Positions 3,733 through 61,136 of a stretch of 64,000 nt of DNA are shown piece by piece. The DNA is taken from positions 558,001 to 622,000 of the forward strand of contig NZ_CP072359.1 in assembly GCF_018128065.1 (NCBI RefSeq). Direction: 5' to 3'. Made by a program: the position numbers and the translations under genes. Within the stretch, counting starts at the first letter, position 1, and every line of letters begins with the position of its first letter. The notes under the pieces were generated by a model. The model was not told where the DNA came from and did no database searches. It saw nothing but the letters and a program-made list of their open reading frames with translations. The DNA is from Prevotella melaninogenica. Its GTDB lineage: Bacteria; Bacteroidota; Bacteroidia; Bacteroidales; Bacteroidaceae.

Positions 3733-3906
3733 TTACAACGAAGCTAATAATTGCTTGCGCTCTTCATCGGTCATCTTCTTGAGTAGAGCGATAAGAGCCT
3801 CTTTGCCATCTTGCGTTTTGTCATTCAGTAAATACCAATTATATTGCAGCATTCTCTCCAAGGGATAGGCACCTATATAATTTTTAGCAATCTCATTCAC
3901 GCTCAT
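3733..3906 (-). CDS. Small ORF, 57 aa, possibly the tail of a lost gene
   Basis: The ORF starts at an ATG at 3906 and ends with TAA at 3733-3735. The product begins MSVNEIAKNYIGAY and ends in a helical, charged stretch MTDEERKQLLASL. An AAGG lies 5 bp before the ATG. The frame stays open 11 codons upstream of the ATG into DNA that looks like a group II intron remnant, so this may be the 3' part of a gene or intron junction rather than a complete small gene. No family is recognised. Confidence 0.4.
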   Translation of the reverse strand: MSVNEIAKNYIGAYPLERMLQYNWYLLNDKTQDGKEALIALLKKMTDEERKQLLASL

Positions 3907-4042
3907 ATGCCTTGTATGAAGTTTCTGTCCGTTAGGTCAGATGTTTGCCACTGGCTTCCTTCAGATTTCACCTCACGACAAACACCCTTGCCTTTGGCTA
4001 TGTAATTCTCGCTATTAGAGCTTACCGGGACTTACGCCCATT
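3907..4042 (-). mobile_element. Probable group II intron 5' fragment (remnant)
   Basis: The minus strand has a run of words typical of domain I of bacterial group II introns: ATTACATAGCCAAAGGC, then CGTGAGGTG, CTGAAGGAAGCCAG, GGCAAAC, TCTGAC, and ACAGAAACTTCATACAAGGC. No reverse transcriptase or maturase reading frame and no domain V-like 3' end follow, so only a fragment remains. The assignment is by remembered resemblance and needs a covariance-model search. Confidence 0.45.
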
Positions 4043-4182
4043 AGACAATACTCATGCCGAGCGTATCAAATTAAAGAGTTGCAAATTTGTTTGATGATGA
4101 TAATCCTTATCCGAGTTAATTTGTTGAGGATTATAGCGTTTTTGAACGATTTGGTTTGTGTAAGCCTTTCTTTCATTACCTA

Positions 4183-4244
4183 AACCAATAGGGGTATCAC
4201 GCTAATCACGCCCCTCCCTATGGGGGAGGGGACGAGGGAGGAAC
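4183..4244 (+). repeat. C-rich hairpin repeat (family R1), copy a
   Basis: AACCAATAGGGGTATCACGC is followed by a CCCCTCCC/GGGAGGGG hairpin. The copy ends 18 bp beyond the stop of the yfhO-like gene and is read in sense as a C-rich hairpin. The other copies are at 16086, 16190, 24587, 26525, 36713 and 61081. Confidence 0.85.
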
Positions 4245-6868: not shown

Positions 6869-7576
6869 ATGAAAATAGGAATCATCGTTGCAATGGACAA
6901 AGAGTTCGAGCAACTTAAAGCAATTCTTTCCAATACCGAGACGGAGCATTTCAACCATAAAGACTTCGTTACGGGACGGTTGGGAGAGAAGGAAATCATT
7001 CTGCAGCAGTGCGGTATTGGTAAGGTTAACTCTACCATCGGTGCGGTGGAGATGATAAACCATTACCATCCCGACCTTGTTATCTCAAGTGGTTGTGCTG
7101 GTGGTGCTGACACTTCATTGGAAGTTACTGATGTGGTGGTGGCAACAGAGTGTGCGTATCATGATGCCTACTGTGGTGATGAGGTGGCTTTCGGTCAGAT
7201 TATCGGTATGCCTGCTCGCTTCAAGGCTCCTGCTGAGCTGATTGAAAAGGCATTGTCGTTGAATAACTTGCCTGATTGTAAGGACCTGCATGTCAAGGCG
7301 GGACTGACAGTTAGTGGCGAATGGTTTGTCAACTCACGTGAGAAGATGCAAGAGATAATGAACCACTTCCCTGAGGCAACAGCTGTTGACATGGAGAGTT
7401 GTTCTATTGCGCAGGTCTGCCATATCTATCAAACACCTTTCGTTTCCTTCCGAGTTATCAGCGATGTTCCGCTCAAAGACAACAAAGCCAGCCAGTACTA
7501 TGACTTCTGGGAGCGTATCGCCAACGGCAGCTTTGAGGTAACGAAACAATTTATTAATTTAATTCAGAATTCATAA
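6869..7576 (+). CDS. mtnN: 5'-methylthioadenosine/S-adenosylhomocysteine nucleosidase
   Basis: This cytosolic enzyme cleaves adenine from S-adenosylhomocysteine and methylthioadenosine, feeding S-ribosylhomocysteine to LuxS. The 235 residues match the PNP/UDP family: MKIGIIVAMDKE with the catalytic Glu12, GIGKVNS, VISSGCAGG, the substrate-binding AVDMES near residue 175, and RVISDVPL with the catalytic Asp near 200. Length is normal for the family. The last codons (LIQNS and stop) lie inside the left arm of a 49-bp inverted repeat whose right arm encodes the LuxS N-terminus. luxS is the next gene, making a methyl-cycle pair, though a 403-bp gap full of repeats separates them. Confidence 0.95.
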   Translation: MKIGIIVAMDKEFEQLKAILSNTETEHFNHKDFVTGRLGEKEIILQQCGIGKVNSTIGAVEMINHYHPDLVISSGCAGGADTSLEVTDVVVATECAYHDAYCGDEVAFGQIIGMPARFKAPAELIEKALSLNNLPDCKDLHVKAGLTVSGEWFVNSREKMQEIMNHFPEATAVDMESCSIAQVCHIYQTPFVSFRVISDVPLKDNKASQYYDFWERIANGSFEVTKQFINLIQNS

Positions 7577-7606
7577 TTCACAATTCATAATTATGATTAC
7601 CGATGT
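7558..7606 (+). repeat. 49-bp perfect inverted repeat, left arm
   Basis: All 49 bases are the exact reverse complement of 7948-7996. The arm covers the last codons and stop of mtnN and ends at ...ACCGATGT. It is made of degenerate GAATTNTG-type units also found at 7812-7900, 12395-12460 and near 59525. Confidence 0.95.
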
Positions 7607-7979
7607 GGGTAGAGTTTATAGGTACAAGCAACTCATTTACTCGTCCACTTAATCCCCACAAATGGTTAGATTTCCTTTTAGCTACCTTTCCCCACGTATA
7701 ATCTAAAGTTCGTGGATAAACTGAAGCTAATATCGATAATCTTAATAGGTAAATAACGAGTTTATAAGTTTACAAGCAACTTGTGGCAATAAACTGAAGC
7801 TAACAGCGGTAATCATAATTATGAATTGTGAATTATGGATTCTGAATTAATAACGGATTCTGAATTTTGAATTATGAATTAAACATGAATTCTGAATTAA
7901 ATATGATTTCTGTTTTAAGTGAGAATAATGAGTTAAAAAAATAGATTACATCGGTAATCATAATTATGAATTGTGAATT
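7577..7979. other. mtnN-luxS intergenic region, repeat-filled
   Basis: No gene was found. Besides the two inverted-repeat arms there is a third, imperfect copy of the AATT-rich unit array at about 7812-7900 and short 8-bp arrays (NNNNNACT type) at about 7622-7652 and 7744-7785. No TAnnTTTG box lies close to luxS, so luxS may depend on read-through from mtnN. Confidence 0.7.
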
Positions 7980-7996
7980 ATGAATTCTGAATTAAA
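7948..7996 (-). repeat. 49-bp perfect inverted repeat, right arm
   Basis: This is the exact reverse complement of 7558-7606. It runs through the luxS start codon and codons 1-5 (MNSEL). The arms enclose 341 bp. Confidence 0.95.
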
Positions 7997-8580: not shown

Positions 8581-8612
8581 GGATAAAGAGAAGAAAGCAG
8601 TGTTAGAGATTT

Positions 8613-8670
8613 AAAAGGGCGTTAATTCCATGTGAATTAACGCCCTTTTGGCTTGCTAAAGATGCCCTTT
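8613..8670 (+). repeat. 22-bp-unit element (family R2), copy 1, with terminator-like hairpin
   Basis: A 15-bp perfect stem AAAAGGGCGTTAATT / AATTAACGCCCTTTT (8613-8649, loop CCATGTG) ends in a T-run and probably terminates luxS transcription in both directions. One further 22-bp unit (ending GATGCCCTTT) follows, and then a heptamer array takes over. Confidence 0.85.
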
Positions 8671-8677
8671 AGCCTTT

Positions 8678-8719
8678 GAACTCTTACCTTTGAACTTTGA
8701 GTTTTGAACATTGAACTTT
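8678..8719 (+). repeat. Heptamer array (GAACTTT-type), 6 units
   Basis: There are six consecutive 7-bp units: GAACTCT, TACCTTT, GAACTTT, GAGTTTT, GAACATT, GAACTTT. The same unit type recurs at 16584, 36464, 39822 (inside a gene) and 59488. Confidence 0.85.
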
Positions 8720-12081: not shown

Positions 12082-12495
12082 AAAGTATAAGACTCTTCCA
12101 AAGTTTGAAGTGATGCACCTTTTACCTTTGAACTTAACTTCTAAGACTACGAATTACACGAATTACGCAAATCCTTATCCCTTATTCGCGACATTCGTGT
12201 AGTTCCTTTGTTACTTTGTCTTCCATTCCCCTGTCTTCCGTCTCCTGTTCCTTTGTTACTTTGTCTTTTATTATTTCTGTCTATTCTACTCTCTTCGCTC
12301 CTCAACTTACTATATGTGAAGAACTTGAATACTTTCCTTTTACCCTTTTCCTTTTCGGTAATCATAGTTATGACGTACTGCTGAGAACTCCGTTCGAATA
12401 ATTATGAATTCTGAATTATAAATTAATACAGTAATCATAATTGTGAATTCTGAATTAAAATATTTATCTTTGCACTCGTTAAATTTTATACATTG
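12082..12495. other. Intergenic region with several short-unit repeats
   Basis: No gene is supported. It holds two heptamers (12121-12135), an ACGAATTACACGAAT / ATTCGTGTAGTTC inverted pair (about 12150-12205), a stretch of TTACTTTGTCTT-type units (about 12208-12270), and AATT-unit copies (about 12395-12460) that run into the promoter of the next gene. Confidence 0.6.
12441..12472 (+). promoter_or_regulatory. Promoter of the TonB receptor gene, partly repeat-derived
   Basis: TATCTTTG (12465-12472) fits the -7 consensus and TTG (12441-12443) lies 21 bp upstream. The TTG belongs to a copy of the AATT-unit repeat (CATAATTGTGAATTCTGAAT), so the repeat supplies the -33 box. Confidence 0.6.
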
Positions 12496-16230: not shown

Positions 16231-16365
16231 TCTCAGGGAGTGAAATGCGAGGGTCCCCCCCCTTATGAGTAGTTGATGAGCTGCGTGTATATTCGCTTGT
16301 TCATTTTGTTTCTCCTATCGCATCCGCTACTCCGTTTTGTAAAGAAAAATCAAAGACTGAAAAAT

Positions 16366-16560
16366 AAAAGGGCGTTAATTGGCTTTCAATTAACGCCCTT
16401 TTCGATTGCAAAAGATGCCCTTTAAGCCTCTTACTAACGCCCTTTTGAAGTCTTATTAAGCACCTTTTCGAAACTACCTTTGCAACTATTTGATAACAAG
16501 CGGCTTACAACGATACTAAAAATACTCGTTTTTAGCTCTTTTCCTCGCCTTTTTGTTAGG
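16366..16560 (+). repeat. 22-bp-unit element (family R2), copy 2, most complete
   Basis: The element has a perfect hairpin (16366-16402, stem AAAAGGGCGTTAATTG, loop about GCTTT). GCCC words then recur at 16395, 16417 and 16439 and GCACC at 16460, a spacing of 21-22 bp. A tail follows (CCTTTGCAACTATTTGATAA, then CTTACAACGATACTAAAAAT and a T-run) that also occurs in copy 3. Confidence 0.9.
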
Positions 16561-16583
16561 CAGAATGTAATAATATTTCAAAA

Positions 16584-24461: not shown

Positions 24462-24586
24462 TCTCTATATAAAGTCTTGCAATCTTTTATTGCAGGGCTT
24501 TATTCAATAATAATATATCCACCATCAGTAATCACTCCTTATTCGCTCATAGACCATTAGTCCAAAGAGAACTTGGAGGTGATACA

Positions 24587-24640
24587 GGGGTATCTCGGTA
24601 ATCACTCCCCTCCCTATGGGGGGAGGGGTCGGGGGAGGGG
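24587..24640 (+). repeat. R1 hairpin repeat, copy d
   Basis: GGGGTATCTCGGTAATCACT then CCCCTCCC/GGGAGGGG and TCGGGGGAGGGG. It ends 27 bp from the ettA stop, in sense orientation for ettA. Confidence 0.85.
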
Positions 24641-26430: not shown

Positions 26431-26601
26431 GAGTTGACGAGTAGATGAGTTAACGAGTGGACAAGGTAATTACAGACAGGATAAATTAAGACAAAGTAAC
26501 AGAAGAACGTTTTACTCATCAACGAACCAATAGGTGTATCTCGCATTTCACCCCCCTATAAGGGAGGGGTTGGGGGTGAGGCTTTCCCCTATGGGGGAGG
26601 G
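26431..26601 (+). repeat. Octamer array and R1 hairpin repeat copy e
   Basis: Octamers GAGTTGAC, GAGTAGAT, GAGTTAAC, GAGTGGAC lie at 26431-26462. An R1 copy starts AACCAATAGGTGTATCTCGC at 26525 and carries a second half hairpin (CCCCTAT/GGGGGAGGG) to 26601. This is the only R1 copy not close behind a stop codon. The gap 26602-26881 shows nothing else. Confidence 0.75.
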
Positions 26602-29381: not shown

Positions 29382-29416
29382 AGTCTTAAACCATCGAAAA
29401 CTGATGGTTTAAGACT
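29382..29416 (+). terminator. Perfect 14-bp hairpin after the sulfatase
   Basis: AGTCTTAAACCATC and GATGGTTTAAGACT pair perfectly over a 7-nt loop, 10 bp after the stop. There is no T-run, so termination strength is uncertain. Confidence 0.65.
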
Positions 29417-29444
29417 CTGAAATATATTTACAAAAAACTTACTC

Positions 29445-29639
29445 AAAGACTTGAAAGAACTCAAAAAACAAGCATTTTTAGCGTCTTTGTAAGTTACTTG
29501 TAATCAGGCAATTGCAAAGGCGCATTTTAAAAGGTGCTTAGTAAGGGTTCAAAAGAGCGTTAGTAAGGGGCTTAAAGGGCATCTTTTGCAAGCCTATTGG
29601 GCGTTAATTGAAAGGCAAAAGAGCATCAATTAATTTTCG
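29445..29639 (-). repeat. 22-bp-unit element (family R2), copy 3
   Basis: Read on the minus strand it has GCTCTTTT, GCCCAATA, GCCCTTTA, GCTCTTTT and GCACCTTTT words at 22, 22, 22 and 21 bp. The tail then contains CCTTTGCAATTGCCTGATTA and CTTACAAAGACGCTAAAAAT, clearly homologous to copy 2. Confidence 0.85.
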
Positions 29640-29743
29640 CTTGTGATTTTATTCGTACAAAACGCAAGAACAAGACATAGAAAACTTGTCATTATTTTTT
29701 CTACTAAGAAATAATGATTTTGCAATTTCACTAAATATAGGTA

Positions 29744-36678: not shown

Positions 36679-36797
36679 GACAAGCAACTTGTCAACTAAG
36701 AATTCGTCAACCAACCAATAGGGGTATCTCGCATTTCACTCCTCTCTCCAATCGGAGAGGGGTTGGGGGTGAGACTTTCTCCCTTTGGGGGAGAGGC
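36679..36797 (+). repeat. Octamer stretch and R1 hairpin repeat copy f
   Basis: GACAAGCAACTTGTCAAC-type units lie at 36679-36712. R1 starts AACCAATAGGGGTATCTCGC at 36713, with the CTCTCC/GGAGAGG hairpin and GGTTGGGGGTGAG, plus a second half hairpin to 36797. It lies 26 bp from the sialidase stop, in sense with it. Confidence 0.85.
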
Positions 36798-41243: not shown

Positions 41244-42701
41244 ATGGATGCAAAATTAGACAATTTCAGTGAGATATCCAAGCTTTTAAGTGTTAAAAGT
41301 AAGATGAGTAGCGATATTCTCTCACTTTTCTCAAAATTTGGTCTTGGACGTCTACTCTGTAGGCTTTCTTTGGAGAAACACGATGGTATCTCCGCTGTTC
41401 AACTGATTCTTTCCCTTTGTCTTTTCCGTATTAATGGTGAGACGATACACTCCATATACAAGAAGAATTTCTACCATCTTCTCACCACTGGAAAGAACTG
41501 CTATTATCGTATGATGGTCAGGCAGACAATGAATTGGCATCGTTTGCTTAGCTATACTGTTCTTCGTTTTGAATGCATTCTCCGGAAGAATGGCATTCAG
41601 ACAGAGAGCGAGAACTCCTGTGTTATATTTGACGATACAACCTTGGAAAAGACTGGTAGGAAGCTTGAGCATATTACCAAGGTTTTCGACCATGTGCGAA
41701 TGAACTATGTTCTGGGCTACAAGCTTCTTTTGTGCCTGTTCTTCGATGGTAAGTCCTCTCTGCCGTTCGACTTCTCCATCCATGAGGAACTAGGAAAGAA
41801 AGGGGACGGCGGACTTGGCAAGAGGGCACTCCGCAGTAGATTCTCCAAGAGACGCATGAAAGAGAGCCCAGCGTATGAGCGGAATCAAGAGTGCGGTATG
41901 AGCAAGAGGGACTCAGCCATAAGGATGCTCCAGCGCATGTGGAAGAGTGGTATTCATCCCTATTATGCCTTGGCGGATAGTTGGTTTGCCTGCGAGAAGT
42001 TCATTGAGGAAATCAGGAGAGTAGGCAACGGAGCTATACACTACATCGGTCTTGCAAAGATGGGAAAGACAAAGTACTTTGTGGAGAATAAGCGACACAA
42101 TGCCGCTGAGCTCGTAGCAATGTATGCAAGACGTACCAAATGCTGCCGGAAGTACAAGTGTCAGTACATTGAGTTGAGGGGCTGTCTGGGGAATATACCA
42201 GTCAGGATATACCTGATTAGATATGGACGTCGACAGACTTGGAATATCATGCTTAGTACGGATCTATCGATGAGCTTTGTGCGTGCCTTCGAGTTATACC
42301 AGATACGATGGAACATTGAAGTGGTCAACAAGGAGACAAAGGGACATCTCGGACTCGGCTCATACATGGGGAGAGACTTTGATGGTCAGATTGCTGATGC
42401 AACGCTCTGCTACATTACATATATCGTGATGTCGTTAGAAAAACGGATGTCAGAGTATGAGACCATGGGTGAATTGTTTGCTGACATGGAAGAAGATGTC
42501 ATGGCACTTACGTTATGGCATCGTGTGCTGAAGTGCATAGAGAGGTTGCTTGCTACTCTTTGTGACGTTCTTGGGTTCTCTGTTAGTGAGATAGGGCAGT
42601 TAATAGTCACCGACTCAGAAATGCGGAACAACTTTGAGATTATGGTCAAAGCATTGGAAGACAGGCAACAAGAAAAGCTCACAACCGTAAACATATTTTA
42701 G
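41244..42701 (+). CDS. IS4-family DDE transposase
   Basis: The 485-residue protein carries the DDE/RNase H-fold landmarks of Bacteroidota IS4-type transposases: first Asp in SCVIFDDTTLEKTG, second in YYALADSWFACEKF, and the C-terminal YQIRWNIEVVNKETKGHLGL with the Y-(2)-R-(3)-E-(6)-K signature. It is full length between the terminal inverted repeats and shows no frameshift, so the element may still be mobile. It starts at an ATG at 41244, about 110 bp inside the left end. Confidence 0.93.
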   Translation: MDAKLDNFSEISKLLSVKSKMSSDILSLFSKFGLGRLLCRLSLEKHDGISAVQLILSLCLFRINGETIHSIYKKNFYHLLTTGKNCYYRMMVRQTMNWHRLLSYTVLRFECILRKNGIQTESENSCVIFDDTTLEKTGRKLEHITKVFDHVRMNYVLGYKLLLCLFFDGKSSLPFDFSIHEELGKKGDGGLGKRALRSRFSKRRMKESPAYERNQECGMSKRDSAIRMLQRMWKSGIHPYYALADSWFACEKFIEEIRRVGNGAIHYIGLAKMGKTKYFVENKRHNAAELVAMYARRTKCCRKYKCQYIELRGCLGNIPVRIYLIRYGRRQTWNIMLSTDLSMSFVRAFELYQIRWNIEVVNKETKGHLGLGSYMGRDFDGQIADATLCYITYIVMSLEKRMSEYETMGELFADMEEDVMALTLWHRVLKCIERLLATLCDVLGFSVSEIGQLIVTDSEMRNNFEIMVKALEDRQQEKLTTVNIF

Positions 42702-42786: not shown

Positions 42787-43460
42787 TTATAAATAAATAT
42801 AATTTTAAAGGATGAAATATAATTATTATAGACTTAAATAAAAAAGAATGAGTCTTCAGCAATTTGGAGTGATACTCTTTGAGATTAAAAACTTCGAAGA
42901 AACGTCACACAGAGAAATGGAGAACACAGAGGCACCGTTGGTGCGTGAAGCAACAGAGGATATTTGCAAGTTTTATTAATCCTTTGGTGTATTTCATTCT
43001 AAAACAATGGTTTGCAAGGTTTATTATCAAAGCTATCAGCAATACGGACACTACGCCTCTGTCACTTTTTGTGCCTTCGGCACCTCCGTGTTCTCTCCCT
43101 CTCTGTGTGCCTTTTATATGTAGTAGGCTTACTTTACCACTCCATATTTCGGAAGAATCAAAAGAATTACCCAATAGAAAACCATGTTCTTCAATTAAAT
43201 GCAGGGCTCACTTTGTTTCGCTTTAACGAGAAAGGTAAAGTTATTTCCAAAAATAGTCAAGATTGTCAACTGTCTTTTTTATCCTCCTACACAGTAAACC
43301 TTTTCATCTTAATACTTCGAAAAAATCGCAGATAAGACATTGAATAATTATTACACAAATTTGAATTAAACTCCTAAAATAAAGGGTAAAAATACGTGTA
43401 AGAAAACAAAAATACAACTACCTATAAATCAACCAATTATAAAGTCGTGTGAGAACAGGG
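42787..43460. other. Intergenic region with a large inverted repeat
   Basis: No gene is supported; open frames here are short and low-complexity. About 42904-42960 (CACACAGAGAAATGGAGAAC, ACAGAGGCACC) and 43048-43113 (GGCACCTCCGTGTTCTCTCC, CTCTCTGTGTG) are inverted copies of an ACAGAGG-type 8-bp-unit repeat that could fold into one large stem-loop. Confidence 0.6.
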
Positions 43461-43557
43461 GCTTAATAGGTCTTCAAAAGGGCGTTAGTAAGGGCGCAAA
43501 AGGGCATCTTTTAGAAGCGAAAAGAGCATGAATTGAAAGCCAATTCATGCTCTTTTA
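43461..43557 (-). repeat. 22-bp-unit element (family R2), copy 4, with covarying hairpin
   Basis: Read on the minus strand, the hairpin stem is AAAAGAGCATGAATTG / CAATTCATGCTCTTTT (43520-43556) with the same GCTTT loop as copy 2. It differs from copy 2 at three base pairs, each changed on both sides. GCTCTTTT, GCCCTTTT, GCCCTTTT and GCCC then follow at 22, 22 and 21 bp. It lies 138 bp downstream of the permease stop. Confidence 0.9.
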
Positions 43558-43694
43558 TTTTTAAGACTTGATTTTTATTTACAATATGGAGGTAGTGAAA
43601 GGGGAAAAGCAGAATATTATATTAGGCAAAGAAGCAAGTGTAAACGCTGTTGTCTTAACTCCTCTAACTCCCTTTCTCTCCTTAACTCCTCCTC

Positions 43695-54479: not shown

Positions 54480-54921
54480 AACATATTCTTTTAAATATTC
54501 ATTGTTCCAAATACAATATTTAATATTTTTAACACTTTTGCGTATCATTACCGTCTTAAATCATCTTCCCTATCGTTATGAAATCCCCATCCCTACCCTC
54601 TTCTCCTACGCCTAAAATGGTTCTTTCGTTAAATGCATAGATTGGAACATTGCATAAAAGCTTCTATACTTGCATGATATGACCATTCAAAATTAGATAG
54701 TCTTACAAAGGGGCATAAACTGCAAGATAAAATACAGAAAAGGCAAGTAAGTACGATTCATCAGGAATAAGGAGTGATATTATTCGCCATATTTCATAGA
54801 AAAAATTTGTTTGACCATAAATATTATGTCTATTCATTAGCATGCCTTTACGTCTTCTACAAGTAATTTATCCCCAACAACACGATGTTTGTAAACTATT
54901 TTCATACACTTCAAAACCAAT
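54480..54921. other. AT-rich divergent intergenic region, left part
   Basis: No gene, RNA or repeat is recognised here. The region separates the divergent trefoil protein and GH29 genes. Confidence 0.5.
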
Positions 54922-55110
54922 ACATGCTCTTTTAGCTTCTAAAAGATGCCTAATTAACTTGCAATAGATGTCCTTTTAGCCTGTTACTAACGCCCTTTTG
55001 AAGTCGAAGTAAGCACCTTTTCTTACACGGTCACACAATCACCTGACACACTGTTAGTTACAAAGGGCACTGAAAAGACGATTTTTCGTTCTTTTTAGAC
55101 ATAGAAACAA
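54922..55110 (+). repeat. 22-bp-unit element (family R2), copy 5
   Basis: Five units are seen: GCTCTTTT, GCCTAATT, GTCCTTTT, GCCCTTTT and GCACCTTTT at 22, 22, 22 and 21 bp. A tail (TTACAAAGGGCACTGAAAAG, then TTTTTCGTTCTTTTT) is related to copy 3. The opening half of the hairpin is missing. Confidence 0.85.
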
Positions 55111-55264
55111 AGAAATAATGTAAAGAAAAATCAGCACAACAGGGCAATAAAAAGTAATCGGGAAAACAAGAAATAACACACCTAATCAACTAATAAGTAG
55201 GCAGAAACTTATGCTCACAAAAATAAATTATAGTCCTAATTACACGTATTTCCAAATTAATTCG

Positions 55265-61032: not shown

Positions 61033-61136
61033 AAAAAAACAGAGTAACAAGTTCTCCTGCTACTCTGTCTTTTAAACTTTTAGGGGTATCCCGCATTTCT
61101 CTCCCCTCCCTATGGGGGAGGCGCTGGGGGTGGGGC
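61033..61136 (+). repeat. Terminator hairpin and R1 hairpin repeat copy g
   Basis: ACAGAGTA (61039-61046) pairs with TACTCTGT (61061-61068), flanked by A- and T-runs, as at 59378. R1 copy g starts GGGGTATCCCGCATTTCTCT at 61082 and ends 12 bp from the M60 stop, in sense with that gene. Confidence 0.8.

Follow-up and report, generated by a model that had tools for sequence, protein, structure and literature searches.

A dispersed 247-bp intergenic repeat of Prevotella built from 22-bp phased units and placed mostly just past gene ends

Introduction

REP/BIME elements of enterobacteria are palindromic tandem units located at gene ends, with a species-specific sequence and hundreds of copies. Topoisomerase or nucleoid proteins bind to them, and they have an effect on the ends of transcripts.

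In the related bacterium Porphyromonas gingivalis, the accessible part of PMC4596501 describes the BrickBuilt MITE, an intergenic element with a leader, tandem 23-nt repeats and a tail, present in 19 copies of 1 to 22.8 repeats and bounded by IS5-like end repeats such as GAGACCTTTGCA. For Prevotella, the PINSR report (Naito et al. 2015, PMC4755523) gives a 188-bp intergenic non-coding repeat confined to this genus, which numbers 177 copies in one P. intermedia strain and 184 in another and has no terminal inverted repeats. P. nigrescens, P. falsenii and P. disiens were also PCR-positive in that account and the other species tested were not; neither P. veroralis nor P. denticola, both included in the test, is among the positives. 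The 2015 report, as far as its accessible part goes, left function and source open, and the literature searched held no later account. Further literature relevant to such repeats includes PMC5771137, and a review of MITEs exists as well (PMC10969869).

Here, we analysed a window of 64,000 nucleotides (C1:558001-622000) in a 3.34-Mb Prevotella genome of two contigs. The LuxS of the window was closest, among the matches listed (80 loci kept, a set that may lack close records of the own genome), to those of P. jejuni, a rumen MAG, P. veroralis, P. multiformis and P. histicola. The original prediction for this DNA was a nameless element of ~190 bp, dispersed over five intergenic loci. All five loci proved genuine and homologous, and they belong to a family that is larger and better defined than first described.

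Results

A fixed-length family of about 100 intergenic copies

The unit word ACTAACGCCCTTTTGAA (up to three mismatches) occurred 127 times in the genome, compared with 12 times for the backward-read pattern; the element is present far beyond chance. A search with a whole copy gave 40 non-overlapping matches out of 127 first-look candidates, with E values from 1e-106 (copy 2 itself) to 1e-18. HMM/nhmmer searches of this genome, with a model built from 100 of the 127 unit-word places plus earlier loci, recovered at least 98 distinct copies, 93 of them full length. An ORF of at least 80 aa overlapped 5/93 copies. The identity of the element as a dispersed, non-coding, fixed-length family of about 100 intergenic copies is well supported.

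Alignment of the 93 copies defined a frame of about 247 bp with sharp ends, longer than the ~190 bp first proposed. From left to right it consists of TTTGTAAAatAtTTTCA, units with GCYC cores, an inverted repeat, an AT-rich stretch and TaTGTAAtgATtTTTCA. In the consensus, the left motif reads TTTGTAAA..TTTCA, about five partly palindromic 22-bp units follow with a GCYC-core spacing of 22, 22, 22 and 21 bp, the inverted repeat after them is TTTGTAAC..TTGAT..GTTACAAA, and the right part carries a second TTTGTAA motif. The predicted spacing is thus a property of the family consensus; copy 2 has its first unit inverted, which leaves direct spacings of 22, 22 and 21 bp. The conserved tail, noted at first for copies 2, 3 and 5, is found in copy 4 as well, and copy 1 is a truncated fragment (Table 1).

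Distances between motif centres, read from the consensus, were 33, 22, 22, 22, 21, 33.5 and 77 bp, all near multiples of 11, and the length was 242-249 bp in 83/93 copies (223-239 bp in six, 252-253 bp in four), in line with the proposed two-helical-turn phasing. Growth of the array by slippage, also suggested at first, does not fit this nearly constant length within the 247-bp family. Median pairwise identity was 61.5% between copies and 76% in the unit region. The alignment had almost no internal gaps (1.16 indel events per copy, a count that may be low because the gap penalty was raised; the length distribution is independent of that penalty). Since the length stays constant at ~61% identity, spacing and geometry appear to be under constraint. 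A nearest neighbour at 90% identity or more was found for 2/93 copies, with a median nearest neighbour at 75%; this genome holds few young copies.

Table 1 Features of the repeat family in the window
Feature	Position	Strand	Description
Copy 1, truncated	8606..8687	+	Holds a hairpin plus a further unit; lies downstream of luxS
Copy 2, full length, 247 bp	16336..16582	+	nhmmer, HMM 2-249, 202 bits
Copy 2, left terminal motif TTTGTAAAGAAAAATCA	16336..16352	+	Sharp conservation boundary in copy alignments
Copy 2, perfect hairpin	16366..16402	+	Inverted first unit and second unit
Copy 2, direct units	16395..16469	+	GCCC at 16395, 16417 and 16439; GCACC at 16460
Copy 2, imperfect inverted repeat TTTGCAACTATTTGATAACAAGCGGCTTACAA	16479..16510	+	Consensus TTTGTAAC..TTGAT..GTTACAAA
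Copy 2, right terminal motif AATGTAATAATATTTCAAAA	16564..16583	+	Sharp boundary
Copy 3, full length	29416..29652	-	Without inverted first unit
Copy 4, full length	43340..43584	-	Perfect hairpin from ATGCTC-type unit
Copy 5, full length	54888..55133	+	
GGTTCTTTCGTTAAA	54619..54633	+	One mismatch from end repeat of longer MITE-like unit

Other features were seen in the same window. The copy-1 fragment forms a strong hairpin and is perhaps a domesticated luxS terminator. An IS4 family transposase (41244-42701, plus strand; NF049925, 381.5 bits, cut-off 250) adjoins copy 4. Another dispersed intergenic repeat, AGGGGTATCTCGCATTTCACTCCCCTCCC.., whose arms are rich in G/C, lies at 4181-4241, 24577-24637, 26516-26597, 36704-36790 and 61066-61133, and a third (TTTAATTCAGAATTCATAATTCACAATTC..) has direct and inverted copies at 7558-7606, 7798-7850, 7943-7996 and 12420-12472 and recurs many times in genomes G156 and G170.

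Copies lie mostly just past gene ends

When the copies were mapped relative to genes, as had been proposed, most were found just past gene ends. With simple ORF calls, which were used for all gap analyses, 36 copies lay between convergent, 42 between tandem and 14 between divergent gene pairs, and one of the 93 had no called right neighbour. This distribution differed from that of the gaps of G026, G003 and G108 (p 0.0065). Between tandem genes the copy was closer to the upstream stop in 35/42 cases (p 1.5e-5). In 400 kb of G108, whose elements are described below, 12/25 convergent, 16/69 tandem and 4/23 divergent gaps contained an element (10/42 elements fell outside called gaps), and all 16 tandem-gap elements were closer to the upstream stop. 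Such placement can also arise through loss of insertions near promoters.

Hairpin arms, covariation and fold potential

The hairpin arms of copies 2 and 4 had been taken as a fold kept by selection or by copying, as their differences compensate each other. The difference is present in the sequence, and the selective reading fared poorly, with 15-16 of 16 hairpin pairs in 4/92 full copies (the hairpin of the copy-1 fragment lies outside this count). The palindromes of copies 2 and 4 are built from different unit types, ACGCCC and ATGCTC; both types are present in ordinary copies, and these palindromes therefore resemble inverted unit duplications. The copy-2 palindrome is missing from the G170 element that shares the right half of copy 2, and the copy-1 palindrome is identical in the own genome, G156 and G170. 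With the four near-perfect copies left out, arm pairing was 8.48 of 16 within copies versus 7.72 between copies (0/500 shuffles). In the covariation check the hairpin centre gave the highest z (6.3), while arbitrary centres ran down to -6.4 (sd 1.9). Relatedness alone can give such values, so the hairpin covariation is not clear of background, an outcome that the original prediction had itself named as counting against it, and we do not use it as proof of a selected RNA fold.

RNA folding of the unit region gave z values of -2.3 and -3.0 on the two strands (93 copies, this genome) and of -4.4 and -5.1 in G108 (34 copies), compared with -0.56 for the own flanks and -0.9 and -0.7 for the tail. 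Both strands of the unit region have real fold potential. Copy 5, one of two window copies folded, had no significant structure (z +0.8 and -1.8). No Rfam family matched the copies above its gathering score; the only such match in the window was a group II intron domain at 3864-3982 on the minus strand (RF02001, 56.9 bits, gathering 32).

Part of the family sits inside a longer end-repeat unit

The end repeat GGTTCTTCCGTTAAA (up to one mismatch) was found at 28 genome sites versus 0 for the control. By coordinates, 21/28 sites were near recovered copies, many at recurrent offsets. A longer MITE-like unit with these end repeats encloses about a third of the copies; its left end repeat is 109 to 290 bp from the copy (up to three mismatches), and the core is still near 247 bp. 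Shared flanks were present beside 34 (right) and 33 (left) of the 93 copies, some via other repeats, and a core-less 145-bp form of the unit lies at C2:391908-392052. The core travels, or travelled, inside the end-repeat unit in part of the copies. No transposase was noticed from ORF starts at the six GGTTCTTCCGTTAAA-ended loci without a recovered copy that were inspected.

The end motifs of the core are direct and quasi-palindromic. Their likeness was 0.656 within a copy and 0.661 between copies; no target duplication was detectable in this comparison, and the motifs were rejected as att sites or target duplications. The 12 bp preceding the left and right motifs were slightly more alike within copies (0.342 vs 0.302), which we read as probable subfamily structure. 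For copy C1_258650, the flanking gene pair has no element between it in G026. Phage and plasmid collections (blastn) gave no element match, and viral contigs no exact match to one 20-bp unit word.

The copy at L155 360-2170 (within G000:C1:288869-290653) is split by a two-ORF insertion sequence, IS3-like by reading, and four more copies have a left flank beginning with seemingly the same end. The only Y1-type transposase found in the genome, a broken one, is at G000:C1:838488-838854, near copy C1_840367.

Arrays with a 22-bp period occur widely in Prevotella

A tandem self-similarity scan of 80 LuxS loci (1.51 Mb) detected 67 arrays at lag 22; lag 14 gave 14, and the other lags from 15 to 40 gave 0-5, except 21 (8) and 23 (6). 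G026 (397 kb) had 28 arrays at lag 22, with 15 at lag 23, 6 at lag 21, 23 at the harmonic 44 and otherwise 0-2; G003 (388 kb) had 12, with 7 at 44 and otherwise 0-1. In smaller samples (N runs excluded), G010 had 5 in 259 kb, G017 6 in 40 kb and G016 1 in 40 kb, and G024 and G069 had none in 20 kb each. No lag-22 array was found, N runs aside, in 318 kb of other families of the order; one genome from such a family (G053) carries 23-bp tandem units CTCACAAGTTTGTCAGTTTTTAC at L298 8230 and 9646. The scan, with a threshold of 0.62, misses the own family (0/5 window copies, three scoring 0.59-0.61); as the units of this family are too diverged for it, the scan under-counts.

The G026 arrays fall, by reading, into at least eight unrelated unit families, with a within-array self-match of up to 98-100%. 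The mean dyad score was 6.0 versus 4.96 in shuffled sequence (107 arrays), and the dyad was significant (p <= 0.05) in 37/107 arrays and not in the other 70/107, compared with 8/59 control-lag arrays. In called gaps of at least 150 bp, outside which 33/116 arrays lay, arrays occupied 34/138 convergent, 37/319 tandem and 11/150 divergent gaps (convergent versus divergent, p 7e-5; control-lag arrays 3/138 versus 1/150, p 0.35). The bias was strong in G026 (17/31 convergent, 10/56 tandem and 0/24 divergent), absent in G003 (1/22, 7/64 and 2/27) and short of significance when the 80 loci were taken by themselves (p 0.08).

Near 119 arrays of other genomes the end motifs of the window element were found 6 times (left) and 11 times (right), and most arrays do not carry them; descent of all arrays from one ancestor is therefore not established. 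The TTGAT..GTTAC motif was dropped as a companion of all arrays and kept as a marker of a subset: its strict form accompanied 2/67 arrays and a looser one 11/119, versus 0.8% of control windows. The link of the 247-bp family to bare 22-bp arrays elsewhere would thus be one of layout. Across species, 13/56 mapped flank points had a lag-22 array versus 2.5 expected for random positions (maximum 9 in 1000 draws). We do not claim orthologous array positions, as a shared gap preference can account for this result (17/31 convergent gaps in G026).

Near relatives and a rearrangement at copy 2

Further copies, which the original prediction had called for in the genome and in related Prevotella, were numerous in the genome and present in relatives too, so this condition does not refute it. 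Searched with another copy, the 247-bp form matched in 8/150 genus genomes including this one. First-look candidates numbered 130 here, 232 in G156, 203 in G170 and 104 in G148, of which five per genome were scored. The copy-1 fragment downstream of luxS is common to G156 and G170.

Compared with G170, copy 2 showed 88% identity in the right flank, 77% in the element and 48% in the left flank, which is the level of unrelated sequence. In G156 the corresponding OmpA junction is free of the element, and the block left of copy 2 is inverted elsewhere, beside an element aligning to copy 2 at 66%. Copy 2 is therefore best read as a recombination junction between two copies. This agrees with the rearrangements between PINSRs reported in the accessible part of PMC4755523.

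A P. falsenii element of similar layout

P. falsenii locus L061 (17 kb) contains one element and G017 (40 kb) seven, with units such as GCAAAACCTACGGTTTTGGAAT. The L061 copy occurs at 100% identity in G017, which is therefore probably P. falsenii. This element is ~198 bp long, and its layout matches the window element by eye, with left motif, 22-bp units and a GTAAC..TGAT..GTTAC repeat. Its form was found in two of the 150 genus genomes (E <= 1e-10), G017 and G108, and not in this genome. G108 (two contigs of 1.97 and 0.71 Mb) has 42 elements in 400 kb, 34 of them near full length, and the 33 most complete are 190-198 bp and free of gaps.

Against G017, the window-family HMM produced six hits, each sub-threshold (E 0.06-0.99), all of them on five of the seven elements and in the right strand and module. 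In the reverse direction, the P. falsenii HMM gave three hits in the own loci (E 0.018-0.14) versus four in reversed sequence, that is, nothing. In the G108 consensus (34 copies, L369-L388), the right end GTGAAAAATATTTACAC, by eye, approximately inverts the left end TTTTGTAAAGATAATTC, and the two may form an imperfect terminal inverted repeat; PINSR is said to have none in the accessible part of PMC4755523.

Discussion

The fixed 22-bp geometry, and not covariation, is the evidence that matters here. The explanation that we rank first, and that seems to us about as likely to be right as wrong, is a helically phased gene-end element of REP/BIME type. Palindromic units on one helical face would form a docking row for a chromosome protein that recognises structure and phase and not a particular sequence, with a topoisomerase or a nucleoid protein as the candidate, and the same unit hairpins, as RNA, might end or insulate transcription from either side. 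If structure and phase are what is read, this would account for unit sequences being replaced from species to species even though period, palindromes and placement at gene ends are kept. Several points count against this gene-end explanation: a terminator has no need of fixed spacing out to 77 bp, the roughly eight unrelated unit families of G026 are a misfit with a sequence-specific protein, the arrays of G003 show no convergent bias, 70/107 arrays have no significant dyad of their own, copy 5 has no significant fold, and gene-end placement may come from loss of insertions near promoters.

Ranked next, and in our judgement somewhat unlikely, is a purely selfish, non-autonomous MITE-like element whose TTTGTAA ends and 22-bp units would be bound by a transposase or recombinase acting in trans, with gene ends as merely tolerated insertion sites. 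Phased transposase sites occur in the ends of Tn7 or Mu. The high, lineage-specific copy number suits such an origin (127 unit hits here; by HMM, 397 kb of G026 held a single clear copy, and 388 kb of G003 had no hit below E 0.004), as do the element-free gene pair of copy C1_258650 in G026 and the GGTTCTTCCGTTAAA-ended unit around about a third of the copies. It is opposed by the lack of a detected target duplication, by terminal motifs no more alike within a copy than between copies, by the rarity of neighbours at 90% identity or more (2/93 copies), and by the fact that no autonomous partner was seen and that neither the phage and plasmid searches nor one exact 20-bp unit word in viral contigs gave a match. 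Two further readings carry little weight with us. Palindrome-prone slippage or inverted duplication could leave functionless 22-bp arrays as a mutational by-product, and the self-match of 98-100% in G026 and the duplication-like perfect palindromes of the window family are what it would produce; the same period of 22 across unrelated units and many genomes, the fixed 247-bp frame around the array and the gene-end bias make it improbable. A conserved structured RNA gene, its hairpin maintained by compensatory change, has a slim chance: the unit region folds better than shuffles and arms pair slightly better within copies even without the four near-perfect ones, but folding is seen on both strands and is lacking in the tail, arbitrary centres equal the hairpin z in size, and Rfam has no match at the copies.

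Beyond this genome, we tentatively propose, as a possibility that we hold at less than even, a geometry-defined class of Prevotella gene-end elements in which palindromes recur at exactly two helical turns and units are replaced wholesale between species, with period, palindromy and position kept. If true, this class would imply either a chromosome protein responding to structure and phase or a way of copying units with a 22-bp ruler, neither known today. The anatomy of the element would tie PINSR to a genus-wide class of arrays, and it makes the function question testable, through an array binder and through transcription end or supercoiling relief between convergent genes. The element also points to candidate natural recombination junctions in two-chromosome Prevotella genomes.

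Compared with known systems, the window element is most like REP/BIME in its combination of phase, palindromic units, placement at gene ends and replacement of unit sequence, and differs in its exact 22-bp phasing, its fixed TTTGTAA-ended frame and the absence of a Y1 transposase from G003 and G017. That it is a true REP/BIME system, mobilised by a REP-associated Y1 transposase (RAYT), is hardly credible and was largely refuted by a PF01797 search. Dispersed, palindromic, species-specific gene-end units are as expected of such a system, and 23/30 genomes searched (G026 outside this set) had some Y1_Tnp match; however, there was none in G003 (99% complete; 12 arrays in 388 kb) or in G017 (94% complete; seven elements in 40 kb), and this genome has a single broken copy. 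BrickBuilt, as the accessible part of its report presents it, is likewise an intergenic tandem-repeat element in a related bacterium, but the window family has another copy number, a constant length and other ends: here a frame of fixed length holds 22-bp units in place of 23-nt repeats of variable number, and IS5-like terminal repeats were not visible on inspection of the consensus ends.

The closest likeness is to PINSR as described in the accessible part of PMC4755523. Both are intergenic, non-coding, of similar size, present in more than 100 copies per genome (here 98 recovered copies and 127 unit hits) and points of rearrangement, and the PCR-positive P. falsenii carries an element whose layout, by eye, matches that of the window element. 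Differences lie in length (188 bp vs 247 bp), in unit sequence, in the 22-bp phasing and palindromic units, which that part of the report does not describe, and in the host, which by the LuxS matches listed is near P. jejuni, P. veroralis and P. histicola, outside the PCR-positive group. Because the 247-bp form occurs outside the intermedia/nigrescens group (8/150 genus genomes including this one), we class it as a PINSR-type relative and not as PINSR itself. The original statement that the element has no name holds only in part, since the element resembles PINSR in layout, size and taxon; on these three grounds, it is most likely a PINSR-type element of another Prevotella clade.
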